This document shows, in pieces, positions 10,771-36,255 of a stretch of 36,255 nt of DNA. Both the position numbers and the translations under genes were made by a program. Position 1 is the first letter of the stretch. The number at the start of each line of letters is the position of its first letter. This stretch comes from Ignavibacteriales bacterium. GTDB taxonomy: Bacteria > Bacteroidota > Ignavibacteria > Ignavibacteriales > Ignavibacteriaceae. The stretch covers positions 1 through 36,255 of the forward strand of contig JAGUYG010000034.1 of the NCBI GenBank assembly GCA_020061465.1, given 5' to 3'. The notes below the pieces were generated by a model that saw only the letters and a program-made list of their open reading frames with translations, was not told the DNA's origin and ran no database searches.

Positions 10771-10783
10771 AAGGAGAAAAATA

Positions 10784-11248: not shown

Positions 11249-11277
11249 ATTTAATCACTAACATTAAGGGTTAAGCA

Positions 11278-13239: not shown

Positions 13240-13246
13240 TATTCGG

Positions 13247-13274: not shown

Positions 13275-13374
13275 TGAAATTTTCTAAATTATTTTTGGTT
13301 AGCGAAGAGATGATATCTTCAAGATTACTTAACTCTTCTAAGGATGCCATCTCTCTTAAAATTTAAGAATTGTG

Positions 13375-14444: not shown

Positions 14445-14534
14445 TAACTCAGCTTACGCAACTAAACCTTCGAGGTCGCTGACTAAGACCTCGAAGGTTA
14501 CTAATTGCGTTTCTACGTAAGGTTAGTTAATAAA
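14441..14534. repeat. MITE/REP-like palindromic element inside the nos operon
   Basis: The ends TTAATAACTCAGCTTACGCA (14441-14460) and its near reverse complement (14515-14534) match at 16 of 20 bases. Inside are ACGCAA/TTGCGT arms and a perfect 13-bp stem AACCTTCGAGGTC (14465-14477) / GACCTCGAAGGTT (14487-14499) around a nine-base loop. The left end recurs at 26369-26390 and the inner motif resembles the palindrome at 33718-33766. The element overlaps the nosL stop codon and fills most of the nosL-nosD gap, so it will form a large hairpin in the nos mRNA. Confidence 0.8.
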
Positions 14535-14563
14535 TTTTTTCAAAAAGAACAAACTATAATTAA

Positions 14564-17490: not shown

Positions 17491-18756
17491 TTATTTATAA
17501 ACAAACGACAACGCAACAATCCATTCGGATATTTTCGGTGAATGAATTACGTTAAATATGAAGACATTGCTAACTGTTACTCCGGTTTGAAATGACCAAA
17601 ATGTAGATTTGACATCACTAAAAGACCGAAGAGCCGGACTATATTCCGGCAGAATTTCTTCATTATAGAATAATCCTAGAACAGGATTTGTAATAACAGA
17701 AAAACTAATCTCACTAAAAATTTTATATAACTGAATTGCTCTAAATCCTACATGGTTTAGCTTTCCCGGTATCATCTCAATTCCTTGATCAAGATAAACA
17801 TAAAACATAGTTATATCGGAGTTTCTGTAATCGTCGGTTATGCTCATCAACTGAGTCTGTCTCAGTTTGCTGTTTTCCCGCAGAGCTGCGCTGCTTATAA
17901 ATATTCCTTGACTCATACCGATTGCAGCCGGTTTAACAAAAAGATTGTTTCCCCCCCAAAAAATTCCACCTAATTGAAAATCGTAATTTTCTTTGTGTTT
18001 CCAGATGAAGAAAGCACTCGGTAATCCATCGGGACGGAATGGGGCATAGCGTCCAACAGCAAGCGTTCGGACATTTTCTTTATGTTCGGTGCTCTTAATA
18101 TATCCTCCAAGGAAAAAAGTATTGTAAGGACCCTCAATTATTCCGGCTAAACCAAAACGATTATTAATTCTTTCGTCAATTCTTCCTCTGCCTGCGAGCG
18201 CAACAAGTGAGAATGCACTTATGGAAAATTTTCCAACCGCATAATAGGAATTAAGAACAGTCTTTTTAAATAAAGATGAACCGCTCGGAATAAATCCGTC
18301 AAAGTATTCATAACCAACTCTAAACCATAAATTAGGTTGCGGTCTAAGTGTGATTCTTGAGAACACAGATTTCTCATGCAGTGAAGTATCTTTTATTACA
18401 TCGTATGTTCCGCCTATGTCAAGCTGATATCTATCGTCATCATTGATAGGAAATAGCACCGCTCCGCCGGTTGCCTCTTTTACACGCAGCTCGTTTCTAT
18501 TATTAAGACCATTGTTGGCAATCTTAAAAAACAATGTCTTGTTTCGCTGGTCTTTTCTGTAAAAATTAAATAACGAAATGTTTTCCGAATCTTCTTTTAG
18601 ATAAGACAATTGAAATTCCCAAACAGCAGGACGCGGAGGACCGAAAACAGAGTAGCGTATATCTTCATTCAATTTTTTTGGAGTGTGTTCATCCTGTGAA
18701 AAAATAAATGTTGAAAGAGATATAAATAGGAGTGGTAGTATATAAAAAGTTTTCAT
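17491..18756 (-). CDS. Putative outer-membrane beta-barrel protein, unknown function
   Basis: I do not recognise a named family. A signal peptide of about 20 residues ends STFIFS, with mature QDEHTPKK. The rest alternates polar and hydrophobic residues in short strands with many aromatic girdle-like positions and Gly/Asp turns, for example YQLDIGGTYDV, WFRVGYEYFDGF, FFLGGYIKST and WIVALSFVYK at the very end. A closing strand with terminal aromatic and Lys is typical of outer-membrane barrels. The FGPPRPAVWEFQLSYL segment near residue 40 may be an N-terminal plug or linker. It converges on nosY with a 188-base gap. There is no ribosome binding site near the ATG. A link to N2O reduction is possible only by proximity. 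Confidence 0.7.
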   Translation of the reverse strand: MKTFYILPLLFISLSTFIFSQDEHTPKKLNEDIRYSVFGPPRPAVWEFQLSYLKEDSENISLFNFYRKDQRNKTLFFKIANNGLNNRNELRVKEATGGAVLFPINDDDRYQLDIGGTYDVIKDTSLHEKSVFSRITLRPQPNLWFRVGYEYFDGFIPSGSSLFKKTVLNSYYAVGKFSISAFSLVALAGRGRIDERINNRFGLAGIIEGPYNTFFLGGYIKSTEHKENVRTLAVGRYAPFRPDGLPSAFFIWKHKENYDFQLGGIFWGGNNLFVKPAAIGMSQGIFISSAALRENSKLRQTQLMSITDDYRNSDITMFYVYLDQGIEMIPGKLNHVGFRAIQLYKIFSEISFSVITNPVLGLFYNEEILPEYSPALRSFSDVKSTFWSFQTGVTVSNVFIFNVIHSPKISEWIVALSFVYK

Positions 18757-19043: not shown

Positions 19044-20066
19044 TTATTCTTTAGGACCAATATTCAATGAAGAGATATCCATCAAGTAAGGCTTTATCTT
19101 CATCTTCTCTTCGGGTGAAGCGCCGCGGTTCGATGCGAACTGCAGCAGTTTTCCATCCGGTGAAATCGATGGCAGTCCGTCAAATCCTTCGTAATAAGTC
19201 AAGCGGGTTTGTTTACCTGTTTTCAGACTCATCAAATAAATTTCATAATTGCGCGGCTGTAAAAATTTCACGAATACGAAATGTTCTTTATCAGGTGAAG
19301 GATATGGTGCCCAATTTGTCCCGTCATCATGCGTAATCCGCTTTACTTCCGAACCGTCTTTTTTCATGGTGTAAATTGACATTGGCATAGGACGTGTACC
19401 TTGTACCTTTCTTTCCCATGCTCTATAAATGATGGTTTCATTATCAATAAAGAACGCACCGCCTTCCTGCCAATCTTCCGTAAATGTTATTTGGTGTTCA
19501 TCGCTCCCGTCAGGACGCATAAGCCATAAATCCATTTTACCTTCAGTTTGCCTACCGAATAAAATCCATTCACCGTCCGGTGATACAGAGACCTCTGCAT
19601 CATAATATTCGTTGTTCGTTAACCGCTTAACATTGCTTCCGTCTAAGTCGCATATATAAAGTTCTGCACCTTGCGGATAATCATTAGCGTTTGACCAATC
19701 GCCTTTCGGTAAATCGGGATGATCTTTTGTTGAAGTGTATACCAATCTTTTTCCGTCGGGGAAATAATATGAACATGCATCTTCTCCTTTATCATTAATT
19801 CTCAAGATGTCCGTTCCATCAATCTTAAAAGTGTAAACTTGATGAGTTGGGTCATCTTCGAATTTCGCATTGCCTATCAGACTTTCACCATCGGGCGAAA
19901 AATAGAACTCGGCACCTTCATCAATGTTTGGTATTGCCCAAACTTCAAATTCTTCTTGTTCTTGCTTTTGTACCTGGTTCTGTTTGGAAAACCAGCCGAA
20001 TGTTATAAATACTACCGCTGCGAGTAATAACATAAAGAGTGCTTCTAAGGTAATTTTATTCTTCAA
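19044..20066 (-). CDS. Signal-anchored WD40-like (PD40/TolB-type) beta-propeller protein
   Basis: An N-terminal hydrophobic segment (about residues 10-27) acts as a signal or anchor and is followed by a Gln/Glu-rich linker. The body is built of PD40 repeats, each with an [FYV]SPDG-type turn: FSPDGESLI, YFPDGKRLV, VSPDGEWILFG, PSPDKEHFVFV and ISPDGKLLQFASN. Such propellers bind peptides or proteins in the periplasm and are often fused to or encoded beside peptidases. It is the last gene of a run M16 peptidase, M1/M28 peptidase, propeller, 44 bases after the second. The start is a TTG at 20066, supported by AAAGGAG six bases upstream. The specific role is unknown; partner or substrate-presenter of the neighbouring peptidases is an inference. 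Confidence 0.82.
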   Translation of the reverse strand: MKNKITLEALFMLLLAAVVFITFGWFSKQNQVQKQEQEEFEVWAIPNIDEGAEFYFSPDGESLIGNAKFEDDPTHQVYTFKIDGTDILRINDKGEDACSYYFPDGKRLVYTSTKDHPDLPKGDWSNANDYPQGAELYICDLDGSNVKRLTNNEYYDAEVSVSPDGEWILFGRQTEGKMDLWLMRPDGSDEHQITFTEDWQEGGAFFIDNETIIYRAWERKVQGTRPMPMSIYTMKKDGSEVKRITHDDGTNWAPYPSPDKEHFVFVKFLQPRNYEIYLMSLKTGKQTRLTYYEGFDGLPSISPDGKLLQFASNRGASPEEKMKIKPYLMDISSLNIGPKE

Positions 20067-20110: not shown

Positions 20111-23100
20111 TTACCTTTCTATTAATTCGATTGAAGTTTTATTTTCTTTTCCATCCCGCAAATAAATTAATTCAACAACATCGCCGGGCTTGAAATTTTT
20201 CAAGGCTTCTGAGTAATCGCTTAGTTTAGTTACCTTGAACTCACCTAATTTGATTATCACATCTCCTTTTTGCAATCCAGCTTTTGCAGCGGGAGAATCT
20301 TCTGATAAATCCGCTAAACGAACACCTTCACCGGAAAAAGTAAAATCGGGCATGCTACCGGTAGTAACTCTTCGTTCACCTGTTGTTTGAGGTTTTTTCT
20401 CTTCAGAAGCTGTTTGTCCTTGAAAAGTTAAAGGCTCTTCTCTATCGGCTAAATAGAGAAGGGCTTCGCGGGCAAACGTGGCAACTTTAACTAAACCTGC
20501 TGCGTCAATTTTATCAGCCGTGTCAGTCGGTTTATGGTAATCTTCGTGCGGCGTTGTGAAGAATTGAACAGCAGGAACTCCAACATCAATAAAGCTCTTT
20601 TGATCGCTTGCGTCAAGGTCTTGAGTTACCATTTCGGCTTCCACTCCGGTAACATAACCGGCGCCCATAAAAATAAATCTCCATTCTCTGGCGCTCGAAC
20701 TATTCAACACCAACAGTTTCTTCTCACCCAACCGTCCTACCGTATCGAAGTTGAGTACGCCGATTGCTTTTTTGGCGGGGAAGTGTTTCATATTATTTAC
20801 GTAATACTTCGAACCCTTTAATCCGCTTTCTTCAGAAGTAAAGGCTGTAAAAACAACTGTGCGTTGTGGTTTAAATGATTTGCCTAATAGTTGAGCCAAC
20901 TCAAGCATTACAGAAACACCGCTTGCATTGTCATCGGCACCGTAGTGTATTTTCCCTATATTTTGTTTGCTTGCACCGGGCCATCCTAAACCGATATGAT
21001 CATAATGCGCGCAAACTATAACCGATTCATCTTTCAAATCAGGATTTGAACCGGGAATAATTCCGATAATATTTTTAACAGGTGCTTTATTACCTTCAGC
21101 GTCAATCACTTCATCCCAGATTTGAAAATAACTACCGTCATCAGCACCGGGAAGTAAACCGGCTGACTTGAATTGCTCTACAATAAAGTCAGCAGCTTTG
21201 TCTATTCCAATAGAACCGGGAGCGCGTCCGGCTAATTCTTCGCTTGCTAAATATTCAACGGTCTTCATCATTCTTTCGGCAGAAAAAACCGGTGCAAGTT
21301 TTGCTAACGCTTCTCTTCGTGGTGAAGAAGTAACTGCTTCGGGCTTAACCGATTCGTTAAGCCAATTTGTTGAAGCACTCAGAGGTGAATTGACCGCTTC
21401 CCATTCACCCTTAGCAATATTTGCCGGTTCTTCTCCCTCAAAAACCAGGTAGCTGTATTTTCCGTAGTGAGGAAGTTTCCGTGCTAATCCTTGAGCCGCA
21501 TTCTTATTATCGGTTGATAAAAAAACTAAAACGGCATCCGGATTTTCAGAATGACGAACCGAAATTACAAAGCTGTTCTTCTCTGCTTCAAAAGATGTTT
21601 TGCCGAAACGAATCGATTCATCCGTTAAATCAGCATCGTAATCTTTTAGTGATTCTTTTACTAAAGATGCAAATTTATTTTCACGTCCAAATATCCAAAT
21701 GCTAACATCAGCGGGAAGTTCTTTTATCTCGCTATCCGATTTCACCTCAATTTTTTTTGTCGGATCGTTTGCCCATGTGGCTGCAAGTTCTTTATAATAT
21801 TCCAGGCGATTAGTTTCTGCCTTTGATGGTAAAAGAATTAATATTTTTTCAGAGCCGAAAATTTTTGAGAGGGAAGGGGGAATCTCATTATAATGAAGCT
21901 TTCGAAAAACATTGAATTTGGGATCAACTTGAATCATGAGCGGATGATCGGCTAATTCAAATTCAAAGCTTTGTTCTCTTTCAGCCATTTCGACTTTTTT
22001 TATTTCAACTTTATCCTCGAATGAAACAGCGATTGGAACATCCAAAACGAAGACATCATAATCCTGAATTTGAGTTAAAGTAAAACTGAGGGAATATTTA
22101 TCTTTGACTTTTTTTAATGCAGCGTCATTCATTTTTAATTCAGGAGCGCCTTTACGATTTACCCATTGATCAAAAAACAATTTTAGATCTTTACCTTTAA
22201 CAGATTCAAACGCAAGGCGAATATCATCGAATGATGCTGCTTTGAATTTATTATCGCGATAAAATTTTTGAAATCCCTTTACGAATTGTTCATCGCCAAC
22301 TTTTTCGCGAAGCATATTCATTACCATCATGGTTTTACCGTAACCAATAGCTTCTGAAGGAGCATTGTAACGCGAGATAAATTTGCTTAAAGGAAAATCG
22401 TTTGAAGGAATGACATAATCTGTGAATTTTTGAAGAGTTGTTCGTCGATATTCATCACCTTGACCGCGTTGTTCAGCTATTAAATGATCTGCCATATAAG
22501 AAGTTAATCCTTCGCACCAGTTGCCGGTTTTAAAATCCACATACACACTGTTGCCCCAATAATTATGCAATAGTTCATGCGGGTAAGACGAGTGAAGAAT
22601 AAAGGGAAACCGGATAATTTGTTCGCCTAATAGCGTAAAGGAGGGCATTCCGTAGCCGGTTTCCCAAAAATTTTCAACCAAAGCAAATTTAGTGAAAGGA
22701 TATGGTCCAACAAGCTTTCGATACATTTCTAAATATTGAGCCGTGGTCTCTAAATATTTGTTCGCAAGTGTTTCGTCCGGTGTTCTTAAAAAAGCCAAAA
22801 CATCCGTTGCGCCGGAAGTTGTGTGGTATTCATTGAACTGAGCAGCTATTAAATAAATTTCTTCCATCGGCTCGGGAGAAATCCATGTAATTATTTGCTC
22901 GCCGTCTTTAGATTCATTTAAGGTTCGTTTTCCCTGGCTAACTACACTCCATGAATCGGGTACGATTGCAGTCAATTCGAAACTTATATGTTCATCTTTT
23001 TCTGATGATTGGTTTGTAAATCCTGGAATCCATTGTGTGGAGCCTGCTAAATAAACTCCTCTCTCATCGATTATTCCCGGAGTAACGCTGAAACCGCGTG

Positions 23101-23515
23101 CGTATTCTTCTCCCATTTGCTTAATTGGGTAATGAATCTTTCCATTGAATTTTAAAGTAACTGTTATATCATTATCAATTATATCATCGAATGAGAGAGA
23201 ATATTTATTTTGAGCTATTTGAGAAATAAGCGCAAAGTCTTCTCTGTCCATCCCTACATTTTCTGCCTTTACATTACTCTCAACTAATTTAAGCGTAACG
23301 CCCGGAGACCCGGCTGATACATTTAAATTGCTGTTTAGAAGAAAATGTAAAACAGATTGTGAGTACTTCGATGGAATGGTGATTTCATCTATCGCATCAA
23401 GATAATGGTTCGAGGGGTCTATCCGAACAGTTATCTTATGATGTATTAATGAATTTGCATAAAGCACCGAAGTGGAAATGATAAGTACAAGTATAAATAT
23501 GGTTTTCTTGAACAT
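20111..23515 (-). CDS. Secreted M1-like / M28 double metallopeptidase with C-terminal PDZ domain
   Basis: A signal peptide (residues 1-20, ending VLYA) leads to an M1-like aminopeptidase region up to about 460, with the zinc motif HELLH (313-317) and a downstream Glu335 in NWCEGLTSY. The gap between the last His and Glu is 17 residues, one fewer than the classical x18. GYGMPS (288-293) stands where M1 enzymes have GxMEN. Residues 555-720 form an alpha/beta region I cannot name. Residues 745-1025 are an M28 aminopeptidase with AHYDHIG (836-842), GADDNASG (859-866), TSEESG (893-898), DTVGRLG (924-930) and a late His in TPHEDYHKPTD, so its two-zinc site looks complete. Residues 1063-1134 are a PDZ domain (GVRLADLSEDSPAAKAGLQKGD region). 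AAAGGAG precedes the ATG. Expected role: periplasmic or extracellular peptide breakdown. Confidence 0.93.
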   Translation of the reverse strand: MFKKTIFILVLIISTSVLYANSLIHHKITVRIDPSNHYLDAIDEITIPSKYSQSVLHFLLNSNLNVSAGSPGVTLKLVESNVKAENVGMDREDFALISQIAQNKYSLSFDDIIDNDITVTLKFNGKIHYPIKQMGEEYARGFSVTPGIIDERGVYLAGSTQWIPGFTNQSSEKDEHISFELTAIVPDSWSVVSQGKRTLNESKDGEQIITWISPEPMEEIYLIAAQFNEYHTTSGATDVLAFLRTPDETLANKYLETTAQYLEMYRKLVGPYPFTKFALVENFWETGYGMPSFTLLGEQIIRFPFILHSSYPHELLHNYWGNSVYVDFKTGNWCEGLTSYMADHLIAEQRGQGDEYRRTTLQKFTDYVIPSNDFPLSKFISRYNAPSEAIGYGKTMMVMNMLREKVGDEQFVKGFQKFYRDNKFKAASFDDIRLAFESVKGKDLKLFFDQWVNRKGAPELKMNDAALKKVKDKYSLSFTLTQIQDYDVFVLDVPIAVSFEDKVEIKKVEMAEREQSFEFELADHPLMIQVDPKFNVFRKLHYNEIPPSLSKIFGSEKILILLPSKAETNRLEYYKELAATWANDPTKKIEVKSDSEIKELPADVSIWIFGRENKFASLVKESLKDYDADLTDESIRFGKTSFEAEKNSFVISVRHSENPDAVLVFLSTDNKNAAQGLARKLPHYGKYSYLVFEGEEPANIAKGEWEAVNSPLSASTNWLNESVKPEAVTSSPRREALAKLAPVFSAERMMKTVEYLASEELAGRAPGSIGIDKAADFIVEQFKSAGLLPGADDGSYFQIWDEVIDAEGNKAPVKNIIGIIPGSNPDLKDESVIVCAHYDHIGLGWPGASKQNIGKIHYGADDNASGVSVMLELAQLLGKSFKPQRTVVFTAFTSEESGLKGSKYYVNNMKHFPAKKAIGVLNFDTVGRLGEKKLLVLNSSSAREWRFIFMGAGYVTGVEAEMVTQDLDASDQKSFIDVGVPAVQFFTTPHEDYHKPTDTADKIDAAGLVKVATFAREALLYLADREEPLTFQGQTASEEKKPQTTGERRVTTGSMPDFTFSGEGVRLADLSEDSPAAKAGLQKGDVIIKLGEFKVTKLSDYSEALKNFKPGDVVELIYLRDGKENKTSIELIER

Positions 23516-23609: not shown

Positions 23610-26228
23610 TTACCGCACAATTACCAACACCGGATTTTTTATATTCAAGTATTTTTTAGCAGCATCTTTTACATCCGACAACTTTACGTTCTTTAATTTT
23701 TCATGAAAGTTTTTGTCGTAATTGAAATCACCATGAAAGTATAAAGAGCTGCCTAAATAAAAAGCCTGGTTAATGCTTGAAAGCCGCCTAAACATCATTC
23801 TGCCAAGATACATATTGATTGATTTTTCCAATTCGTCTTCGGTTAATTCGTTAATTAATTTCTTTCCGAAGAAGCCGGGATATTGTGAAACGAGCGTGTC
23901 AACATTTTGGGGACGCGTCCCTTGGTTTATATAGAACAACGCTTTGTCGTCAATTATTTCGATGCCTGCGCTCATGTGATAAGCCATTCCTTGCTTTTCG
24001 CGAATATCAAATACAATATTGTCGGAAAGAATTAATGAAAGAGCCTGCAGCGGCGGTGCATCAGCCGGATCAATCTGAGCTGTGAATCCCCAGAACAAAT
24101 AGGAACGCTCGCCTTTACCGTCTTTTTCAATCTCAGCAGCGTTCTCCTGAAGTAATAATGATTTTCTATAAACAGGAAGTTTTTCTGTTGTCGAAGTACT
24201 TCGGAATTGACTAAATAACGCCTTAACAGAATCGCATGAAGCAGGTGACACAAGAGAAATTATCATATTAGCCGGTTGAAAATATTCCTTAGCGAAAGCT
24301 TTTAGATTGTCATACGATAATGCAGGCTTATCGCCGGTATACGGCTCAGGTTCATAAATGAGTGGTTTGTATGTATCGTCGAATAATTTTTTGGCTTTAT
24401 CACCGCCCATCTGCATCATTTCAATTCCTTTAAATTTTTCTACAGCTTTATTGAATTCATCTTCGGTCGGAATAAAATCTTTAAATTGTGAATTCAAAAA
24501 ATTAATTGCACCATCTAATTCATCTGCCAAGCCTTCTGCTCTGATGTATCCGAAATCGGGATGTAAATAAATATCATCCATCGGGATATACGGATTATCA
24601 TTGAATACAAACGTAAATCCAAATTGACTGCTCTTTTTTTGATTCTCATCCGACTTCATGCGCTGTTCTAAGCAGTCATGTAAAATTTTTGCCGCATCCT
24701 TCCCGTACTTTGATTCATAAGATGCTTTATGTTTTATTAGATAATGGACCGCTAAAAGATTACTCAATTGGTTTTGAACAACAATTAGTGTTTTTCCGGC
24801 TTCTTCCTCATCAAAAAATTTTATCTCGCTTATTGATTCGATATCTTCGGCTTCAGCCTTAACTGAAGGAGATTGAATAATAATTAATTCCGGAGTGCTC
24901 AACTTAACGGCATCTAAGTCTCTTACCGCTGTGTAATATTTACTTCCGGTATATGATTCTAAAACCGATTCTAAACCATTAGTAACGATCTCGTGTGAAT
25001 TATATATTCCGAACATGTGCGGCTTTTCGATATTCTTCAGAAACTCAGTGCGTGCTTTTGTTACTTCCGACTTTATTGCATCCTCCGACAAAGTGAAATT
25101 TATATTCGCCAATTTTTTCGATAACGAATTAATCAATTCACTATAGTCAGCATATTTATTTACCAGCACCACAGCCTCAACAAAATTTTGGAAATGGGAA
25201 GATCGGGTTGATAATCTTAACGATTTGACAACATCTGCAAATTCAGTCTTAAGAGCATTTTGAATTTCATCTTTACTTTTTTCCAGGACGATGTTTAACA
25301 GCTTGAAAAATTCCGAAGACTTTTTTTCGGGAAGGGGATAAAATACCTGCAAAGAAATATCTTTACCGTCATAAAAGCGGTTGTAAAGAAAGCCTGTTTG
25401 TATCATAGAAACATCCGGTTTCTGGAAACCGGTGTACCATTCCGGCTGCACATCACGTCTTACTAATCCCGGTTCAGCTTTCCCATAAACTTCTTTTATC
25501 ATCGAAAGCATGGCAGCGGATTGAAAATTCCCGATTGCTGTTAAAAGCATATTGTTCGGTACATAATTATTTTTATAGAAAGCATGGACGTCATCCCGCC
25601 GCATTGATTGGATAGTTGAATAAGTGCCTAATGTGGGCAAGGAAAGTGCATGACCGTTATATAAAATTGAAGCAGTATTTCGTTCAAATTGTTCTGAAGG
25701 ATTGGCAAGACTTTTTGATATTTCTTCCAACACTATGCCTTTTTCCTTTTCGAATTTATCTTCAGGCAAAGTAGAATTAAAAAGCATATCAACCTGAAGT
25801 TCCATTCCTTCTTTAGTATTCTCCGCAGGCATAACCATCATATAATTTGTGTAGAAATCAGCCGTGCTTGCATTATTATATCCGCCGATACGGTCAACAT
25901 CGTCATACAGTTGTTTTTGAGTTCGGGTTGTAGTGCCGTTAAAAAGCAGATGCTCTAACATGTGGCTCATTCCGCTTGTAGAAAAAGTTTCATAAGCAGA
26001 ACCAATCTTAACAGCCACATTTACTCCTACCATCGGAAGTGCGGGGTTTTCAATTAAGAGTACTTGCATTCCATTATCAAGCTGATGTATTGAAACGCCT
26101 TTTGGAAGAGGCTGCACTGCAGATTTTGAATCATTCTGGAGTATTCCGTTTGAAGCGGATAATACCGATAGACTATTTAGAACAGCTAAAAGTACTACGA
26201 ATATTAATGTTGAAAGTTTTCTTTTCAT
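23610..26228 (-). CDS. Secreted M16 (pitrilysin-type) zinc peptidase
   Basis: A signal peptide (residues 1-25) is followed by two tandem M16 halves in 872 residues. The first half is catalytic: inverted zinc motif HMLEH (89-93, HxxEH) with the distal Glu in VLEEISKS at about 169, the normal 75-residue spacing. The substrate-side RIGGYNNASTADFYTNY (113-129) also fits. The second half, from about residue 500, keeps the fold but no zinc motif, as expected. LFWGFTAQIDPADAPPL and the DIREKQGMAYHMSAG stretch near 760-780 match the C-terminal M16 substrate-binding region. It heads the peptidase run on the minus strand, 94 bases before the M1/M28 gene, with GAGGA eight bases before the ATG. Expected role: degradation of peptides outside the cytoplasm. 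Confidence 0.93.
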   Translation of the reverse strand: MKRKLSTLIFVVLLAVLNSLSVLSASNGILQNDSKSAVQPLPKGVSIHQLDNGMQVLLIENPALPMVGVNVAVKIGSAYETFSTSGMSHMLEHLLFNGTTTRTQKQLYDDVDRIGGYNNASTADFYTNYMMVMPAENTKEGMELQVDMLFNSTLPEDKFEKEKGIVLEEISKSLANPSEQFERNTASILYNGHALSLPTLGTYSTIQSMRRDDVHAFYKNNYVPNNMLLTAIGNFQSAAMLSMIKEVYGKAEPGLVRRDVQPEWYTGFQKPDVSMIQTGFLYNRFYDGKDISLQVFYPLPEKKSSEFFKLLNIVLEKSKDEIQNALKTEFADVVKSLRLSTRSSHFQNFVEAVVLVNKYADYSELINSLSKKLANINFTLSEDAIKSEVTKARTEFLKNIEKPHMFGIYNSHEIVTNGLESVLESYTGSKYYTAVRDLDAVKLSTPELIIIQSPSVKAEAEDIESISEIKFFDEEEAGKTLIVVQNQLSNLLAVHYLIKHKASYESKYGKDAAKILHDCLEQRMKSDENQKKSSQFGFTFVFNDNPYIPMDDIYLHPDFGYIRAEGLADELDGAINFLNSQFKDFIPTEDEFNKAVEKFKGIEMMQMGGDKAKKLFDDTYKPLIYEPEPYTGDKPALSYDNLKAFAKEYFQPANMIISLVSPASCDSVKALFSQFRSTSTTEKLPVYRKSLLLQENAAEIEKDGKGERSYLFWGFTAQIDPADAPPLQALSLILSDNIVFDIREKQGMAYHMSAGIEIIDDKALFYINQGTRPQNVDTLVSQYPGFFGKKLINELTEDELEKSINMYLGRMMFRRLSSINQAFYLGSSLYFHGDFNYDKNFHEKLKNVKLSDVKDAAKKYLNIKNPVLVIVR

Positions 26229-26775: not shown

Positions 26776-27795
26776 TCAAAATCTTAACTCAACCGAAAAC
26801 CGTGATACTTTTCCTAAATCGTTATAATCAACTAATGCATAATCAAAGCCAACGGTTTGGCTGCCAACGTTTAATTTCACACCGGCTCCGAATGTCCACT
26901 TTTCGATATCATAATTAATTTTGTAACCGAGTCTTGCAAAGAATGTATCGTTCCATGAATACTCACCGCCGATGTTCAATCTTTCATTATTATCATTTGG
27001 ATGATTGCCGTCTACTGCCATTGTAAAACGATGATCGGCAGAAGCAAGAATAGGGTCGCTGCCGCCGACAATATCCATTGCAATTCCAACACGAAAATTT
27101 AACGGAAGGGGATAGGCTTCGGTTTTTAATCGTGCATCGGGATTATATTCGCCTGCAACTCCTTTATTTATATCGGCAAGAATTATTAAGTCGCGTCCTT
27201 CAAGCTGCATATTGCCGCCAAAATTTGAGACGCACATTGCTATTACCAAATTGTGAAATCCGGTTTTAAGATATGTCCCGATATCTAACGCTACTGTATG
27301 CGCCGATTCATTGTAAGCCACCTGCTGAATGTATTTTACCGTCATCCCGACAGAAAAACGATCGGTTAATGCACGGGCATAAGACAGTCCGATTGCGATA
27401 TCACTAACATTGTAAAAAACACCTGTACCTTCGGGCTGCTCAACTGTGGTTACTTCCTGTTCGTCGGTACTTAGCGATACAGCACTAATTCCAAGCACAT
27501 CGTTTTCACTTAGGGGAATCGCAATACCTGCGTAATTGTGGTAAATTTCTGCAAACCATTGAGAATGGCTAATTCCGACGGAGATTGAATTTAAATTAGT
27601 TAAACCCGCAGGATTCCAATACAATGTGCTGACATCGTTTGCAACTGCGCCAAAAGTTTCTCCCATTCCGGCTGCTCTGGCACCGACACCGATTTTTAAG
27701 AATTGTGCTGCTGCCGTTCCCACCTTAGAAAAACTGCCGCACAAATTATTTGCAGAAAAACCGATAACAAAAAGTATGGTAATTATTTTTTTCAT
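26776..27795 (-). CDS. PorV/PorQ-family outer-membrane protein
   Basis: A FadL-like barrel of 339 residues with a signal peptide (about 1-20). The family signature is clear: FLKIGVGARAAGMGETFGAV (residues 33-52), then NDVSTLYWNPAGL (54-66) and SHSQWFAEIYHNYAGIAIPL. The chain ends in a barrel strand, RFSVELRF. PorV itself is the T9SS shuttle that hands cargo to the attachment machinery, while other members are accessory barrels of unknown role; which applies here cannot be told. It is the third gene of an operon after the TonB receptor and the large surface protein, 29 bases behind the latter, with AGGAG nine bases before the ATG. The pairing suggests it serves export or anchoring of the neighbouring surface protein. 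Confidence 0.9.
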   Translation of the reverse strand: MKKIITILFVIGFSANNLCGSFSKVGTAAAQFLKIGVGARAAGMGETFGAVANDVSTLYWNPAGLTNLNSISVGISHSQWFAEIYHNYAGIAIPLSENDVLGISAVSLSTDEQEVTTVEQPEGTGVFYNVSDIAIGLSYARALTDRFSVGMTVKYIQQVAYNESAHTVALDIGTYLKTGFHNLVIAMCVSNFGGNMQLEGRDLIILADINKGVAGEYNPDARLKTEAYPLPLNFRVGIAMDIVGGSDPILASADHRFTMAVDGNHPNDNNERLNIGGEYSWNDTFFARLGYKINYDIEKWTFGAGVKLNVGSQTVGFDYALVDYNDLGKVSRFSVELRF

Positions 27796-27824: not shown

Positions 27825-30800
27825 TTATTTTATCACCAAAAATTTTCCAACTTTCTTCTGTCCGTTCGGAATAGAAACCACATAAACGTACAAACCGTAA
27901 GCGATGTACTGTTCGTTATAAGTGCGCATATCCCAGAAAGTAAAACCTCGATTATCGTTATGGTCTATATTCGCAATATGATCGCCGGCTACGGTATAAA
28001 TCGATATCTTACATTCATTCGGTAAGTTGTTAAACATTAATTTTTTACCGAATTGATCGTTTTCCCAAACATTCGAAACTATATAAGGATCGGGTACAAC
28101 TCTAATTTTATTCAAATCAATATTTTCAGTAGTTAAGTATTGTGCCTTCCTAGTATTAAATTCATACCTTAATTCTTTTCTGAAGGGCTTATATGTTTTA
28201 ATTGTAAATTGATCTCCATCAGAAGGAGGAAAAGCGGGACGGAATATTGCATCTCCATCGGCGTTGATGTATGAATCGGGGAAGTTATTGGTATTTAAGT
28301 AAAGTCCGGAATAGGTAGTATCATTAGTTACTTCATCGACAATAACTTTTTCTATTACAAGTATGTCAGTGTATTTTTCATAATACCCTGGACTGCCAGC
28401 CGTATAACCCTTACCGCCCGGTACTAAATCCCAGCCCAATGGACTGTAGAAGCTTTGTCGGTAATCCGGCGGGGCTTTAATTGCAAACTCAAACAGCCAG
28501 GTATTCTCTGTAATATTAATTGGATTATCGGGATCGGTAATTACCTCAACTTTTAACGGAAGATGTTGAAGCGAGTCTTGCTCGGTGCCGGTGAAGTAAT
28601 CGTACCAGTGCGCCCAAACTCCACCTGTTTCAGTCATGTCCACAGTAATTCTAAAATCTTCAATTGTGTAGATTGTCTCGGGTACTATATCTAATCTGCC
28701 TTTGTATTTATCCACCGGTCCTGTTCGCCAATCAAAAGTGCAAGTATCGCCGTTTACTTTTGTCCATCCGATAAACTCTACACCGGAAGGTGCATCGAAA
28801 ACCGTTAAACGAAATCCATCAACAATCGGAAGATTATCTTTTGTATCATTTGAGAATAAATGACGATCAAAAAGTAGTGTTGTATCGCCTGTTGCCGCTG
28901 AGATCCTGTAAAGATTAAAACCGAGAACGTAGTTTACTTTGCCGTCTATAATTTGCATTGCCGAATCAACAAATGTGATTAAATAATCGTCACCGGTTAT
29001 TAAATCGGGTTGAATGATGTCAACTTTTACCAGCCCTTGACAAATTCCACCGATAGGGGGTATAGCTCCCTCAGCATCAAGAGCAGGACTGAAATTTGGA
29101 GGTGAATAATTTTGAGCTTTAACACCCGGTATCACCGAAACGGTATGCGATTCCATGGTTGATCTTCCGAGCGGCGATTGATATGATTGTTCAAGATTGT
29201 CGGGGTCTTGATTTCCTCTATCATAAGCAGTAACACAATACCAGTATTCAACGCCGTTTAAAAGATTGTCATCAACAAAACTATGCTTCAATCCTGTGTC
29301 ATCACCTAAAGATTGATTGAATGCGGGATCGGGACCCTTAATTCCATTTATAAGATCAAAAATTTTCAGAGGCTGATAACCAATAACATTTCCGTAATAA
29401 TCCGTAATTGGTTTTCCCCAGGTAATACCTTTGTCATCGCTTCTATAAATTTTATAACCCTCAAAATCGTATTCGCCGGTTAAAGGATCTTTCGAATTTT
29501 CCGCTTCAGAATCCCATGCTATTCGAACCTGTTTATCTCCCGCATAAGCTACAACCTTTGGTGTTTTTGGTGGACCCGAGCCTTGAAACTTACGGTCGTA
29601 CATCTGCTGAGCAATTCTTAAGTTCTTCATCAGATCAGTTGTATCTGCTTGATTAGGAATATTCCCTGATCTTCCCATAACAACAGCAACCGAGGATTTA
29701 ACCGTTTCGCCCGGTTCTAAATTCAGAGGACCTGTCATTACATAATAATTAATCGGTGCACCGTTAGGAAAATATACTTTCATACTGTCGGGATGAGTGG
29801 TATCAATGCGTCTATTTGCACCATGGAAAAATGCATGTGGAATACCCAGGTTGGGATCATTCGGATTACTAGTAATTACGGGCCACATTTCTTCGTCTAT
29901 TTTTGGCTGCACCTCGCGGTTAAAGAAGTGAAAATCGGTTACGCCAATGTCATTAGGTGTTTGCAAAATGCTAAGCCCTACTATTCCCATATCTGTAGGA
30001 TCGCCAGCCCATGCGCCATCTTTAATATTATTTTTATCCCACACATAAACAAAATCTAAATTACCGTCATCGTTGCTGTCGATAATATTAATTAAATCTT
30101 CGTTGTCGTAATCAGGTCTGAAGATAGCGATGTATCCGACATAAACACTGTCGAGGTGCTTACCGCTTTTATTATGAATTGTAAAATCCCAGAACAAAAT
30201 ATCTTCGGCATAAGGACGACCGTAAGAGAATGCAGTTTGCTCGACTTCTATACCGATTGGTCCATCGGGATGAGAATTTTCGCTGTCGTCAAAAACCGAA
30301 TAGATATCGCGGTCTGAAACAAATTCACCCTCTACTTCATTGCCGAACTCAGGAGAAGTTTCGTCAATATTTATTCGAAAAGGTCCGGGCCAATGGCGAT
30401 CTGAAGGAGTGCTAATCCAATTTCCGATTTCATCATAATATCCTTTTGGCCAGGTTTCGGGATTATCGCTTAAAGGAAGGAAGGGCGTTTCATCCGGTGG
30501 AGGTGCAGTAACATCACCTGAAAAAATTCTACCTCTTGAGCCGGACTTTGGCGACCAATCAACTTTTTCGGAGGGACCACCCACTACTGAAGTAATTACA
30601 TTTCCCTTAACCGCCACAATTAATCCTAAACCAAAACAGTATTGTATCGTAGTACTTGCCGCCTTAGGCCAATGGATCGAATTATTATAGTATTCATGGA
30701 AACTTGAAAGAACTCCATAATTGCCCAGGTAATTAGTTACTTGTCCCTTTTCCATTATTCCCAAACCGCGTTCGAAAGAAGAATAAGTTTTCGTTAAGCG

Positions 30801-30929
30801 TGCAATTTGTTCTGATGTAAGATCGGTATGGCAGCTATTGCAATTTTGATTTTGCGAAAAAATTTCAGTGGTAATAGATAGCAGCACAATTATCGATAAA
30901 ATAAAATATCTCTTTATATACTTAAGCAT
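27825..30929 (-). CDS. Large T9SS-type surface protein with N-terminal CxxCH motif
   Basis: A 1034-residue secreted protein. A signal peptide (about residues 1-25, ending EIFS) is followed at once by CNSCH (30-34), a c-type haem attachment motif. A conserved N-terminal domain with GQVTNYLGNYG and IHWPKAAS follows. About residues 460-640 include fibronectin-III-like segments (TPKVVAYAGDKQVRIAWDS, YDFEGYKIYRS). The last 90 or so residues, from IRVVPDPYIVSNVW through ISIYTVAGD to GKFLVIK, resemble a T9SS sorting domain of the type common in Ignavibacteria. The start at 30929 is chosen for GGAG eight bases upstream; an ATG at 30950 would overlap the previous gene. It is the second gene of the operon, 14 bases after the TonB receptor. 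Function unknown; haem binding is an inference from the motif. Confidence 0.88.
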   Translation of the reverse strand: MLKYIKRYFILSIIVLLSITTEIFSQNQNCNSCHTDLTSEQIARLTKTYSSFERGLGIMEKGQVTNYLGNYGVLSSFHEYYNNSIHWPKAASTTIQYCFGLGLIVAVKGNVITSVVGGPSEKVDWSPKSGSRGRIFSGDVTAPPPDETPFLPLSDNPETWPKGYYDEIGNWISTPSDRHWPGPFRINIDETSPEFGNEVEGEFVSDRDIYSVFDDSENSHPDGPIGIEVEQTAFSYGRPYAEDILFWDFTIHNKSGKHLDSVYVGYIAIFRPDYDNEDLINIIDSNDDGNLDFVYVWDKNNIKDGAWAGDPTDMGIVGLSILQTPNDIGVTDFHFFNREVQPKIDEEMWPVITSNPNDPNLGIPHAFFHGANRRIDTTHPDSMKVYFPNGAPINYYVMTGPLNLEPGETVKSSVAVVMGRSGNIPNQADTTDLMKNLRIAQQMYDRKFQGSGPPKTPKVVAYAGDKQVRIAWDSEAENSKDPLTGEYDFEGYKIYRSDDKGITWGKPITDYYGNVIGYQPLKIFDLINGIKGPDPAFNQSLGDDTGLKHSFVDDNLLNGVEYWYCVTAYDRGNQDPDNLEQSYQSPLGRSTMESHTVSVIPGVKAQNYSPPNFSPALDAEGAIPPIGGICQGLVKVDIIQPDLITGDDYLITFVDSAMQIIDGKVNYVLGFNLYRISAATGDTTLLFDRHLFSNDTKDNLPIVDGFRLTVFDAPSGVEFIGWTKVNGDTCTFDWRTGPVDKYKGRLDIVPETIYTIEDFRITVDMTETGGVWAHWYDYFTGTEQDSLQHLPLKVEVITDPDNPINITENTWLFEFAIKAPPDYRQSFYSPLGWDLVPGGKGYTAGSPGYYEKYTDILVIEKVIVDEVTNDTTYSGLYLNTNNFPDSYINADGDAIFRPAFPPSDGDQFTIKTYKPFRKELRYEFNTRKAQYLTTENIDLNKIRVVPDPYIVSNVWENDQFGKKLMFNNLPNECKISIYTVAGDHIANIDHNDNRGFTFWDMRTYNEQYIAYGLYVYVVSIPNGQKKVGKFLVIK

Positions 30930-30943
30930 ATTTTTATCTCCTG

Positions 30944-33550
30944 TTACCATGTAAATTGTACTCCTGCTTTAATTATTCTCGGCGGACCAATATGATTCGG
31001 ATTGTAATTGGCATCGGGCGAGGAACCGACAAGACCGGCAACTCCCGTATCGAAAGGTTTACCGGTACGGGAATATACATATCGCACATTTTCCTTGTTG
31101 AGTAGATTTGTTACTTCAACAAAAACGCCGGCAGCGATATTAGAAAACCAAAATCTTTTTATCATGCGAAAATCAAGAGTGGATGTCCATGATTTTCGTC
31201 CTGAATTAATTTCTATTCTTACTGTGGGATCAACGTAAGGGGTGTACGGAAGTCCGCTGGCTGCCTGGAAAAGAATATTCAAGTTAAAATCGGAAAAAGG
31301 TTTGATTCCAAATATTTCCGGTCCTTGATCTTTAGGTATGAAAAAATTCAAAGTAACGGCTACATCGTGCCGCTGGTCAAAATCTAAGTAATATTCTTGA
31401 TGCGGAATTTCTTCCTGTTCAAAAGCGTTGATGTATCCGCCTAACGGCTGCGAGTTGTTTCCCTTTGCAATCATGAAGGTGTAATCGATTGAGCCGGAAA
31501 AGTAATTGCTGTAACGTTTCCTCAATGTTAAGTCAAATCCTTTTACGCTTGCATAATCCGAATTATAGAAAACGACATATCCTTTAGATAGATAAGTTAT
31601 ATGAAGCGTGGATAATAAATCGGTTATGTCTTTGTACCACGCCGAGATATCAAGCGCCCAATCGTCTGCCAGCTTGTATTTTATACCCGTTTCATAAGCT
31701 ACTGTTTTTTGTGCTTTTACTCCCGGGTTACCTACCAAAGGTAGTGAAGTACTTAAGTCCTTAACTTGATTGTAATAGAGTGCATTGTAATCAGGGTTTT
31801 GAAAGAAATGACCGTAAGAAAAATGAAGCACGGCAAGATCGGTTATCGGATGAGCCAATCCGATTCGCGGGCTAAGCTGTGTTTTAGCTGCAACATTAGT
31901 TTCAGGAGCGATTATCCAATTATTATTTTCATCGAAATAACCGAATCGTCTTATGTCTTCCCACATGGTTGTTTTAGGGTCGGCATAATCAAGGCGTAAT
32001 CCAAGATTCACTATGAGATAATCATATTCAATTTTATCCTGAATGTAACCAGCTATCTCGAACGGGGATCGGGTATACTCATCTTTATACTGCGCACCTC
32101 CGGGCCACGGCTGCGATTCTTCATATACTTTAATGTTGTGGCTTTTGAATTCGATCCCACTTTTAAATAAATGATAATTGTTTGCCTGGTATGTTAAGTC
32201 AACTTTTCCGCTGTAGGTGGTGGTTTGATTATCGGCGTATCGAGAATCATCTCCTTTTACATAGAAATAGACTGTTTCTCCAGTTTGTCCTCTTACATAA
32301 TCTTGCGGTTGTTTATCGCCTACCTGAGTTTTTAAATCATTCACAAAGCGGGATACTTGAGCAGTGTAAAATAAGCTGTTGCTTATAGTATGCGTTAAGG
32401 TTAATCCTAAACGGTTTGTGTTCTGAATAGAATGAGCCTGGTTTTCACTCAAATATTTCCACGCATGACTATATGATTGGAATTTATTTTCAGTTAATTG
32501 ACCGGATAAAGACATCTTTAAAGCCGGACTGGCTGAATAGGTTAATTTTCCAAATCCGTCTCTTTGTAAGCTGTAACCGTGCGGAAGATAACTGTCCTCA
32601 TTTTTGAATCTGCCAGAAATAAAAAATGATAAATCGGAAACTTGAGGTATAGGACCGCTTAATGATAAACTTATAATACCATTTACAGGAGCTTCTAAAC
32701 TGAGCGGTTTGAACTTCAATTTATCGATAATGCTTTTCTCAACATATTCATAAGTATCTTCCACACCGGCAAAAGGATTCTTCGTTCTATACGAAGATTG
32801 ATTCAGCATAGGCGAGGTGTATTCAAATTTTCCGTGAAAAGATTCTCCACCTTCTTTAGTTACAATATTAACGATGCTTGACATAGCATTGCCGTACTCG
32901 GCATTAAACGTACCGCTTAGCAGGATCATTTCTTCAATTGCATCCTTGTTCATCATTCCTTTGAATCCGCCGTAAAGCGGATCTTCTACGTACATTCCGT
33001 CAACCATGTAAGCAATTTCACCTGTTCTTCCGCCTCTTACGTGAATGTTACCCTCGGCATCGGTGGTGAATCCGGCTTTCGTAGTAAGTACATCCTGAAA
33101 ACTTTCTACCGGCATATTTATTAATTCATTAGAGCTTACAATTGACATTTTTGACGTAACATCTTTCTGTAATAGAGGACGTTCGGCTACAACAACCACC
33201 TCTTCTCCGATTTCTAAAATTGTAGGCTCCATATCGAAATCAACCTGAGTTGTAAGTCCGATGTGAACCTGCACATTTGTAACTCTAACTGTTTTATATC
33301 CGATCATAGTTGCCCGGACAGTATACGTTCCTGGAGGAATATTAATTATGAAGTACTCGCCGTTGAAGTTGCACGCACCTCCTAAGGTAGTACCTTCGAT
33401 TAATACATTAACGCCGGGAAGTGGTTCACCGGTAGCAGCTTCTCTGGCAACACCGCCGATTTTTCCGACGGTTTGTGCAAGCGAGATTGATGGAACGAGT
33501 AAGATTACAATTGATAAATAAAGTCCAATTTTCATTAAATTTTTTTTCAC
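30944..33550 (-). CDS. TonB-dependent receptor with carboxypeptidase-regulatory-like domain
   Basis: An outer-membrane gated barrel of 868 residues. The signal peptide ends SISLAQ (about residue 26). Residues 30-115 form the carboxypeptidase-regulatory-like domain (GVAREAATGEPLPGVNVLIE, with MIGYKTV near the end). The plug spans about 120-240, with VHVRGGRTGEIAYMVDG-like sequence (IHVRGGRTGEIAYMVDGMYV) and SSIVNIVTKEGG. The rest is a strand-rich barrel ending GVQFTW. The GTG start at 33550 is supported by GAGG seven bases upstream; an ATG five codons later has no ribosome binding site. It heads a three-gene operon with the CxxCH surface protein and the PorV-like barrel. The substrate is unknown; no SusD-like partner is present, so it is not a standard polysaccharide system. 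Confidence 0.93.
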   Translation of the reverse strand: MKKNLMKIGLYLSIVILLVPSISLAQTVGKIGGVAREAATGEPLPGVNVLIEGTTLGGACNFNGEYFIINIPPGTYTVRATMIGYKTVRVTNVQVHIGLTTQVDFDMEPTILEIGEEVVVVAERPLLQKDVTSKMSIVSSNELINMPVESFQDVLTTKAGFTTDAEGNIHVRGGRTGEIAYMVDGMYVEDPLYGGFKGMMNKDAIEEMILLSGTFNAEYGNAMSSIVNIVTKEGGESFHGKFEYTSPMLNQSSYRTKNPFAGVEDTYEYVEKSIIDKLKFKPLSLEAPVNGIISLSLSGPIPQVSDLSFFISGRFKNEDSYLPHGYSLQRDGFGKLTYSASPALKMSLSGQLTENKFQSYSHAWKYLSENQAHSIQNTNRLGLTLTHTISNSLFYTAQVSRFVNDLKTQVGDKQPQDYVRGQTGETVYFYVKGDDSRYADNQTTTYSGKVDLTYQANNYHLFKSGIEFKSHNIKVYEESQPWPGGAQYKDEYTRSPFEIAGYIQDKIEYDYLIVNLGLRLDYADPKTTMWEDIRRFGYFDENNNWIIAPETNVAAKTQLSPRIGLAHPITDLAVLHFSYGHFFQNPDYNALYYNQVKDLSTSLPLVGNPGVKAQKTVAYETGIKYKLADDWALDISAWYKDITDLLSTLHITYLSKGYVVFYNSDYASVKGFDLTLRKRYSNYFSGSIDYTFMIAKGNNSQPLGGYINAFEQEEIPHQEYYLDFDQRHDVAVTLNFFIPKDQGPEIFGIKPFSDFNLNILFQAASGLPYTPYVDPTVRIEINSGRKSWTSTLDFRMIKRFWFSNIAAGVFVEVTNLLNKENVRYVYSRTGKPFDTGVAGLVGSSPDANYNPNHIGPPRIIKAGVQFTW

Positions 33551-33776: not shown

Positions 33777-36255
33777 TTATTTCAACAACAACATTTTCTT
33801 AGTTATTATTACATCTCCAGCGGTTAACCGATACAAGTACATCCCGCTTGCCAATGCGCTTGCATCTCCAAAGGATCCTACGGAAAATTTAACTTCATAT
33901 CTTCCTTTGCTTTGATATTTATTTATTAATGTTTCTATTTCATTACCGAGTAAATCATATACAACTAATCTTACCATTCCGTCTGAGGGTATTTGGTAAC
34001 TAATTGTTGTAACCGGGTTAAACGGATTCGGGTAATTCTGAAGAAGTGCATAATCATTTATGATTTCATCTCCGGCAAAATTTATTATCTGATAATATTG
34101 TTTGTTTAGCTGCGTAGAATCGGTGATTACTGAATTATATTTTACCGCATTAAATCCATCGGTGAAAAATTCAAGCAAGAGTTTTACTTCACGGTTACCC
34201 ATTCCTTCGGTACTAATTTTTAAACCGTTATTTTTATAATGAAAGTTTTGTTTATTCTCCTCTTTTAGAACGCCTAACACATCGCCACTTTTTGCATCTA
34301 TGAGTTTTACCTTAAACAACACTTCCGAAGGTTTTACTTTTTCTTTAACAGATGAATAATAATCCATCTTAAAGTTGAAAGAAGATTTATCCGGTAATAG
34401 AAAAGATTCACTCTCTATTCTGTTTTCTGCTTCCGTTGTGTCCTCATCAAATAAATCATTGAATAGAATTCTTTTCCCGTCAGCTTCAATTCCACCGATA
34501 TCAATTGCATAAATTTCCGCTTCTTTTGTTAGACAGAATCCCTTGCTTACCACTTCTGCACCGTTTGTTTTATATAATCCTTGAGTAACCGGTGATGCCG
34601 TGAATGCATGAGGGACATTCCATTTATCAAATGACATTATCTTCATATCGCCCATTGTTGTACCGGCATTTGATACCTGAACATCTCCTTGTGTTGGTAG
34701 ATTGTAGGTATTGGTGGTTGATTGGCTGGTTAAATATTTATCATTTAGATCTCCTCCCCAGGCTAATACAAACTTTCCGCTTGAATTATTATTTATGTTT
34801 GCACTAAGGATATCGTTACCTCCTCCGTAAGCCCAAGTCCAGAACTGGCTCCAATTAGTTCCATATTTTATTCTAAGCTGAACTTTTTGAATATAGGTAA
34901 TCGGTTCTTCTACCAACCAGATTATTGTAGGATAAAAGCTCGTATGATAGAATGCTATGCTAGGTTTGATATTTATTGAATAGCCATTTCCACTTGAGGG
35001 AGTTTCTATGGCAGATTGGGAAACACTATTTTGTGAGTTAGCTGTAAGTACACAATACTTTATTGCATTATTATCTTCCCACGCAACATAAAAATTAAAC
35101 GGAGCTACAGTATTAGCTTTATTCATAGTAATACTTGGCGTTTTTGAATTGCTGCCTGTGGAATTAAGCAAACTTATTTCGGAATACCAATTTATACTTT
35201 CATTGTAACCTAGATACCCGTAACGATAATATAAACCCGCACCAAATTCATTCTTTTTAAATACAATCATTATCTTGCCACCATATATATTTGAAACACA
35301 TATTACGGGATCAGCATCCTGTGAATAATCAGTAATTTCAGTTACTACCTCATTGTCAAGTATTACATCAGTGTTATAATTAAAAACTATCATTCTTACT
35401 TTCCCATCCAGATCGGTTGCATCCTTTTCCTGGAAAACTATTGCTGTCCTGTAATACTGCCCCATTACAGCATCAATTGATGGAAGTTTTGCTTCGGGTC
35501 CGCTGTCAAGGTAAATCCCATCGTTCATTATTTGCCAGGTAGAGCCACCATCGGAACTGGTCTCGTACCAAATATGACCTAATGAAGAATAGACCATGTG
35601 TAAATACCCGTCGGGTGTTCTTACAAATTTCCTTTGGCTGTTGTTTGCATAAGCACCTGCATAATTGGACCGGTTTATGCCTTTGTAGTCGGCGGTAAAG
35701 GAATTATTCGTTTCTGTTATTTGTTGATTGTATCTTGTTTCTGAAGGTGTACCATCTTGCCAGAAAAGGAAATTCCAATCTGTAGAATATTGCCCTGTAA
35801 TTGTGGAAAATGCTGTTATATTGTATTCATCAAAATTATCTGGATAATGAAAAGCATAATATGGAGAATTGTCTAACGTAATCATTTCTTCCTCCCCAAA
35901 TGTTGTCCATTTGACTTTGAATTTAACATAACTTCCCCCTTCCAGGTTGTTTGTAACGGTTAGGGGGTGGGTTTTTTTATAATCAGTAATTACACTTGGA
36001 ACAAATCCAGAATTGTAATTATAATTTAATGAAAACGTATGAGGATATGATTCGTCCTGCCAGTTTCTGAACTTATAATAGTCTATCCCAATATTGTATA
36101 ATTCATCAACTATTTCGCAAGTATATTGAGTAAACGGATGAGTTTGAATTGCTGTTCCATCTTCATCATTTTCGATATCTATAATTTCGCCGTTTACTCT
36201 CATTTGACCATAACCCAATCCTTCTATATCATTTTTTACTTGTATGTCAAATGTG
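33777..36255 (-). CDS. T9SS-sorted surface protein with Asp-box propeller (N-terminus cut by window edge)
   Basis: The reading frame is open to the last base of the window, so the start and any signal peptide lie outside; the visible part is about 825 residues. The N-terminal visible region (about 1-190) has repeated YNITAF/WQDGTPS-like strands of an unassigned beta-rich domain. The middle holds a sialidase-type propeller with an Asp-box (SSDGGSTW) after GYLHMVYSSLGHIWYE and further HMVY/VAWEDNN-like blades. The C-terminus is a type A T9SS sorting domain: NYPNPFNPVTTISYQIP, LVVYDLLGNEIETL, ALASGMYLYRL and the basic end KKMLLLK. Such proteins are exported and anchored or released at the cell surface. 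Enzyme activity is not implied, since single Asp-boxes occur in many binding propellers. Confidence 0.88.
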   Translation of the reverse strand, partial: TFDIQVKNDIEGLGYGQMRVNGEIIDIENDEDGTAIQTHPFTQYTCEIVDELYNIGIDYYKFRNWQDESYPHTFSLNYNYNSGFVPSVITDYKKTHPLTVTNNLEGGSYVKFKVKWTTFGEEEMITLDNSPYYAFHYPDNFDEYNITAFSTITGQYSTDWNFLFWQDGTPSETRYNQQITETNNSFTADYKGINRSNYAGAYANNSQRKFVRTPDGYLHMVYSSLGHIWYETSSDGGSTWQIMNDGIYLDSGPEAKLPSIDAVMGQYYRTAIVFQEKDATDLDGKVRMIVFNYNTDVILDNEVVTEITDYSQDADPVICVSNIYGGKIMIVFKKNEFGAGLYYRYGYLGYNESINWYSEISLLNSTGSNSKTPSITMNKANTVAPFNFYVAWEDNNAIKYCVLTANSQNSVSQSAIETPSSGNGYSINIKPSIAFYHTSFYPTIIWLVEEPITYIQKVQLRIKYGTNWSQFWTWAYGGGNDILSANINNNSSGKFVLAWGGDLNDKYLTSQSTTNTYNLPTQGDVQVSNAGTTMGDMKIMSFDKWNVPHAFTASPVTQGLYKTNGAEVVSKGFCLTKEAEIYAIDIGGIEADGKRILFNDLFDEDTTEAENRIESESFLLPDKSSFNFKMDYYSSVKEKVKPSEVLFKVKLIDAKSGDVLGVLKEENKQNFHYKNNGLKISTEGMGNREVKLLLEFFTDGFNAVKYNSVITDSTQLNKQYYQIINFAGDEIINDYALLQNYPNPFNPVTTISYQIPSDGMVRLVVYDLLGNEIETLINKYQSKGRYEVKFSVGSFGDASALASGMYLYRLTAGDVIITKKMLLLK

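Follow-up and report, generated by a model that had tools for sequence, protein, structure and literature searches.

Does a single CxxCH motif placed directly behind the signal sequence of a large exported protein carry haem and, if so, what would a haem do there? The question is raised by CNSCH in a protein encoded in the window, i.e., the whole 36,255-nucleotide stretch of DNA from an Ignavibacteriales bacterium that was analyzed (Table 1). The reading we favor as a whole explanation, with a probability of roughly 0.55, is that CNSCH represents a single haem c site grafted onto a surface nutrient-uptake protein, where it most likely acts as a surface electron relay.

Results

The motif and its protein

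As stated in the original prediction, CNSCH makes up residues 37-41 of a 1041-residue minus-strand frame and lies about five residues past the predicted cleavage site. Judged by inspection, the hydrophobic signal sequence ends ..TEIFS/QNQNC, making C37 mature residue +5 if Q33 is the first. A lipoprotein was ruled out, as no lipobox was seen by eye ahead of C37. No Pfam or NCBIfam domain scored over its cut-off in the protein, the sole trace being a sub-threshold tail of the type IX secretion system (T9SS), and no cytochrome family of either library matched up to E 0.1. The same library found both Cytochrom_C and CBB3 in the cytochrome of the nitrous oxide reductase operon of the window. This operon (10784-17302, plus strand) encodes a mono-haem cytochrome c, NosZ (propeller match), a 193-residue protein with no Pfam match, NosL and NosD, together with two further frames that on inspection look like NosF and NosY; a similar nos gene set in Melioribacter roseus is described in PMC3534657.

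Table 1. Positions of the CxxCH protein, its parts and the neighboring genes in the window
Feature	Position	Strand	Basis
Exported protein of 1041 aa, comprising a signal sequence, the CxxCH extension, a large domain modeled as beta and a sub-threshold T9SS-like tail	27825..30950	-	
CNSCH (residues 37-41), predicted site for covalent attachment of haem c	30828..30842	-	Sequence; invariant in 22/22 readable orthologous genomes
N-terminal extension, residues 33-60, variable except CxxCH	30771..30854	-	Orthologue alignment
M66, further ligand candidate	30753..30755	-	Kept in 17/22
H85 (SSFHEYY), axial-ligand candidate of the original prediction	30696..30698	-	Kept in 17/22
Residues 82-464, resembling the beta-supersandwich N-terminal domain of GH94/GH116-type enzymes	29559..30707	-	Low-confidence model
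C-terminal tail, residues 938-1041, resembling T9SS sorting domains, below cut-off	27828..28139	-	Pfam/NCBIfam scores
825-aa protein encoded ahead of the receptor, its tail of T9SS type A; 5' end beyond the window	33777..36254	-	TIGR04183 33.2 bits, cut-off 23
TonB-dependent receptor	30944..33550	-	Plug 30.4 bits, cut-off 23.9; CarbopepD_reg_2 59.9 bits
PorV/PorQ-family outer-membrane protein	26776..27795	-	NF033709 215.4 bits, cut-off 90
M16 metallopeptidase	23610..26228	-	Domain scan
M1/M28/PDZ peptidase	20111..23515	-	Domain scan
PD40 beta-propeller protein, conserved in the cluster	19044..20066	-	Orthologous stretches
421-aa protein with no Pfam match	17491..18756	-	Relatives in 5/9 orthologous stretches read

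Conservation among orthologues

C-x-x-C-H was kept in 22/22 orthologue-bearing genomes with a readable N-terminus (21 distinct sequences), a count whose rows were chosen with a pattern containing CxxCH and with which an unselected listing of all homologous frames agrees. In a 23rd such genome (G033, locus L010), a contig end cuts the gene before the motif. The sole orthologue-grade frames of the unselected listing that lack the motif were L068/L089, along with the downstream pieces L090/L101; a contig boundary coincides with the start of L068/L089, and their N-terminal part, which carries CRSCH, sits on another contig of the same genome (L071/L100). The peptide patterns used to find 17 added loci lie outside the motif. 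Absence from close homologues was not observed, and a chance motif is ruled out because CxxCH is invariant in all readable orthologues.

Within residues 34-59, C37, C40 and H41 are the only columns kept in 22/22, the next best conserved being K54 (21/22). The two middle residues of the motif vary freely (SN, IS, NS, SG, RS, AS, SS, ES, SM and AD), and codons vary synonymously, with TGC/TGT at 15/7 and 12/10 for the cysteines and CAT/CAC at 16/6 for the histidine. Free middle residues and the lack of any other invariant column in this segment fit haem c better than a structural loop, and invariance of both cysteines and the histidine favors haem c over a plain disulfide. By its sequence, the motif is a conserved, clade-defining haem c signature in a protein without a match to any cytochrome family.

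Among 59 genomes searched, i.e., the window's own and its relatives, ten carry orthologues, which comprise the window's copy and nine others, the truncated one of G033 included, with identities of 66-77%. In a class sample, orthologue-grade matches occurred in 19 of 391 genomes, any match at E 1e-20 in 28, nine of these being paralogue-grade; in a phylum sample, 13 of 395 genomes matched at E 1e-15, all from the window's class. The distribution of the CxxCH gene across the class is patchy. Named orthologue records are metagenome-assembled genomes with labels such as Melioribacter, Stygiobacter and Ignavibacteria; among the 17 added loci, three are labeled just 'Bacteroidetes bacterium', and the same sequences occur in genomes of the window's class.

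Origin of the extension

The CxxCH protein is one member of a wider family of exported proteins, which individual genomes encode in many copies. CxxCH was present in 0/22 paralogue frames of the tree set, and no CxxC of any kind was found in 29 further loci inspected; these 22 frames and 29 loci sample a family with many more matches. A tree was built from residues 60-600, with the motif columns left out, by a quick method with a midpoint root. The haem group (20 rows) was separated from all other rows by a branch with an SH-aLRT of 100, such that the motif requires one change, on a tree in which long branches among distant paralogues were flagged. These data bear out the suggestion that the motif is an N-terminal add-on; most simply, a CxxCH extension of ~25 residues would have been gained once and kept, given the single change on this branch.

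The window copy shares 75-77% identity with four copies that belong to a different family within the order and 69% with a fifth such copy, compared to 66-70% with its own family, and it groups with two of the other-family copies with a support of 99. Horizontal transfer of the CxxCH cluster is possible.

Axial ligands and fold

We take H41 to be the would-be proximal haem ligand. On the distal side, the candidates among 22 orthologues were H85 (17/22), M66 (17/22) and H93 (15/22), and no invariant sixth ligand was found near the motif in these 22 sequences. The histidine of SSFHEYY, H85, had been put forward as an axial ligand; it is Leu or Gln in 5/22 and was thus rejected as a general one. 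Four of the sequences that lack it (L070, L086, L087 and L090) have Gln at position 66 and a His 16 residues past the motif (K-[VTA]-H), and the fifth, L066, keeps M66. A similarly placed His occurs in L058 alongside M66 and H85, and at least one of the three residues, i.e., M66, H85 or the His 16 residues past the motif, is kept in every sequence. Three of the H85-less sequences form a clade with a support of 100, L090 being a fragment outside the tree. Because the four Gln66/shifted-His sequences look like one lineage, and probably reflect one event, they argue weakly for a swap of ligands.

Far along the chain from the motif, M425 and M441 are further candidate ligands because they are invariant in the clade (20/20 orthologues) and absent from all 22 paralogues. 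Invariant histidines elsewhere (H341, H376, H556 and H997) are mostly common to paralogues, and no Cys or His beyond the motif was both clade-specific and invariant, with C572 kept in 19/20. As five-coordinate haem c proteins exist, the variable sixth ligand is not decisive.

Structure models, built with 15 alignment rows, were poor, with a mean pLDDT of 42.6 for the whole protein, whose model was discarded, and of 50.9 for residues 34-470. The better part of this fragment has block means of up to 83, and the region around the motif was poorly modeled. When the fragment was compared to solved structures, Foldseek matched a GH94/GH116-type beta-supersandwich at E 2.3e-6, but the best row had a TM-score of 0.27 and an rmsd of 16.3; VIA-align matched 8h6h_B with a Z of 13.7 and an rmsd of 3.9 over 226 aligned residues of this model of mean pLDDT 50.9. 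These matches span model residues 49-430 and thus exclude the motif segment. With low confidence, the model suggests that the main domain is a beta-supersandwich and not a cytochrome, and we read a fold of this kind as a hint that the domain may bind something rather than as pointing to an enzyme. Searched by sequence against solved structures, the whole protein gave nothing useful (two matches at E about 0.2), and a profile search (A2) returned two antibody chains only. The 32 residues around the motif of L061 matched cytochromes at E 4.6-4.9, behind an unrelated match at 0.4.

A receptor trio around the CxxCH gene

The CxxCH gene is overlapped by 7 bases by the upstream gene for a TonB-dependent receptor and is followed by the genes for the PorV-family, M16, M1/M28/PDZ, PD40 and 421-aa proteins, in this order. 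The trio of receptor, CxxCH protein and PorV-family protein is complete in eight of nine orthologous stretches (L041-L049); in the ninth, L049, the gene is truncated by the contig end, and the 1.3 kb behind it show no listed PorV frame. Genes for the M1/M28 and PD40 proteins are present in all eight stretches long enough to hold them, with a different order in L046 and L047, and the M16 gene is present in six of these eight. In the window's own genome, a trio without CxxCH occurs at eight of nine further places read (L102-L109), some near GH3, GH16, GH130 or M14 genes. The recurring order of receptor, exported protein and PorV genes leads us to interpret the trio as an uptake module with a layout similar to that of SusCD, in which the PorV-type protein serves the surface partner; the CxxCH-less trios are perhaps an alternative to SusCD. 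In the literature searched, by titles and abstract openings, no description of trios of a receptor, a long exported protein and PorV was met. No electron-transfer partner was recognized within the gene cluster.

Haem maturation and type IX export

Ccm machinery acts on periplasmic CxxCH. The window's own genome encodes contiguous ccmB, ccmC-type, ccmE and ccmF, all over Pfam cut-offs, and an ABC ATPase beside them that fits ccmA by place only. It also carries sprA (SprA, 1009 bits) and two nona-haem proteins over the TIGR04183 cut-off (44.8 and 27.8 versus 23 bits), the tail of the second being below the Pfam cut-off (24.4 versus 27). The CxxCH DNA pattern occurs 334 times in this genome versus 143 for the reversed control, and multi-haem genes are found in arrays. 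Because ccm genes, sprA and T9SS-tailed nona-haem proteins are present, haem attachment before T9SS export is plausible in this organism.

Since most relatives carry Ccm and T9SS cytochromes too, their presence does not discriminate, and co-occurrence was rejected as evidence: CcmF_C was found in 10/10 genomes with an orthologue and in 46/49 without (56/59 overall), and the nona-haem query matched 49/59 genomes, some via the tail alone. Of the ten orthologue genomes, all but G033 matched this query, G052 only through the tail.

The designation of the CxxCH protein as T9SS-type held in part. Its own C-terminal tail is below both curated cut-offs (CHU_C, 15.1 versus 27 bits; TIGR04183, 15.8 versus 23 bits), which leaves T9SS export likely rather than established; the label is supported by the PorV-family gene directly behind, and by resemblance and neighborhood the protein would be a T9SS cargo.

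Other haem proteins were seen in the genomes read. In L120:1591-7792 (contig C16 of the window's own genome), the gene for a T9SS-tailed nona-haem protein is followed by those for a 4-haem protein, a 426-residue protein (perhaps a barrel), a 14-haem protein and a 6-haem protein, an arrangement reminiscent of porin-cytochrome conduits, here with a surface cytochrome of the type IX kind. A second nona-haem protein of 797 residues with a T9SS-type tail is encoded at L121:422-2815 (contig C3 of the same genome), and a further relative at 58% identity on contig C57. Single-CxxCH proteins adjoining response-regulator-like frames are encoded at L048:16280-17872 and at L119:6156-8024 and 10441-12021, all on the plus strand; these may resemble haem-binding Cache (DUF3365) sensor kinases.

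Discussion

Most likely, the CxxCH protein would be exported by Sec, and in the periplasm its still unfolded N-terminus would receive haem from Ccm (System I), bound through both cysteines and with H41 as the proximal ligand. The protein would then transit to the surface via the type IX system with the adjacent PorV-family protein. There it would dock on the upstream-encoded TonB-dependent receptor and act as the substrate binder within the uptake module, and its haem would relay single electrons between this module and either multi-haem cytochromes at the surface or an acceptor outside the cell. The export, loading, transit and docking steps rest on the machinery and gene order, and the relay on what exposed haem c generally does. 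Our confidence differs between the parts: haem attachment at CNSCH is highly probable, and surface location with receptor partnership is probable. Because the module includes peptidases, a peptide or protein substrate is suggested, and the assignment of a peptide is tentative. The mono-haem graft is probably redox-active; that its role is a relay, and not sensing or a structural one, we propose with some reserve.

The main rival to the relay, in our view an unlikely one, is that the haem forms a surface sensor or ligand site, e.g., for NO or CO, being five-coordinate or holding a weak sixth ligand, and reports to the uptake system or a two-component pair. The lack of an invariant sixth ligand nearby fits a five-coordinate haem, frames resembling a histidine kinase and a LytTR regulator precede the genes in three of nine orthologous stretches (L043, L044 and L045, with only the L044 pair confirmed by Pfam), and a preprint (PMC12889525) reports NO-binding sensors that arose by grafting of a CxxCH fragment onto a Cache fold. 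However, a surface protein has no evident signal path to the cytoplasm, and no kinase/regulator pair was seen in the window. Variable nearby ligands, together with the place of a single haem at the extreme N-terminus of a large beta protein, would also suit a haem c with a role in structure or assembly, pinning the N-terminus in the large domain or the receptor; this is rather improbable, given that paralogues persist in the same type of trio without CxxCH.

A CxxC pair can equally serve in redox chemistry or metal binding, and the protein has neither a cytochrome family match nor a conserved sixth ligand, all of which would agree with a disulfide, or with a metal ion bound together with H41, and no haem. 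We consider this about as improbable as a structural haem, because a histidine invariant in 22/22 is not needed for a plain disulfide, the genome encodes the Ccm machinery, and no further clade-specific Cys or His is invariant, C572 reaching 19/20. Uptake of external haem or iron by the module, with CxxCH helping to bind it, could be read from the adjoining peptidases and a partial TonB-hemin match of the receptor; yet this match, at 50 bits, is far under the cut-off of 316.85 bits, SusC and siderophore receptors match similarly, and such uptake requires reversible and not covalent binding, making this reading very improbable.

If haem is attached, the CxxCH protein would exemplify a natural conversion of a non-haem exported protein to a haem protein by a bare CxxCH extension, kept in all copies read; it would link outer-membrane nutrient uptake to surface redox chemistry and add to the sign of haem-loaded proteins as type IX cargo in these bacteria. 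An uptake module with a covalent-haem substrate-binder may even couple surface nutrient capture to extracellular electron transfer, as a class of T9SS-delivered haem receptors with clade-swapped distal ligands, an extension of the proposal that is speculative and rather doubtful. No paper joining haem or CxxCH, surface uptake and type IX cargo was found in our search, which left most subscription literature outside, and we make no claim of absence from print.

The CxxCH protein shares features with several known systems. Like mono-haem class I cytochromes c, it has CxxCH with an invariant histidine, but it lacks a Cytochrom_C or CBB3 match and a conserved distal ligand. With the T9SS multi-haem cytochromes of its own genome (L120:1591-3675 and L121:422-2815), it has in common a signal sequence (by eye), CxxCH and a T9SS-type C-terminus, whereas these cytochromes have nine motifs with MtrC/MtrF-like and C7 domains, and the CxxCH protein has one motif and none of these domains.

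In SusC/SusD and RagA/RagB of Bacteroidota, the gene for a TonB-dependent receptor directly precedes that for a large exported protein. The likeness to these pairs lies in the receptor (partial TIGR04056 match, 54.8 bits, cut-off 368), its place next to an exported protein and the sister trios near degradative enzymes. Unlike SusD and RagB, the CxxCH protein shows no SusD-type domain in Pfam or NCBIfam and no lipobox by eye, has a PorV-family gene behind it, and carries CxxCH.

As described in the preprint cited above (PMC12889525), sCache_heme (DUF3365/Tll0287) has a short CxxCH graft on a non-cytochrome fold, which is family-wide, and motif-less relatives exist. The CxxCH protein likewise combines a conserved CxxCH on a probably non-cytochrome fold with relatives that lack the motif, a likeness by which we claim no homology. 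In sCache_heme the motif is an insertion in a sensor fold, whereas here it forms an N-terminal extension of a large, probable surface protein encoded beside a TonB-dependent receptor.
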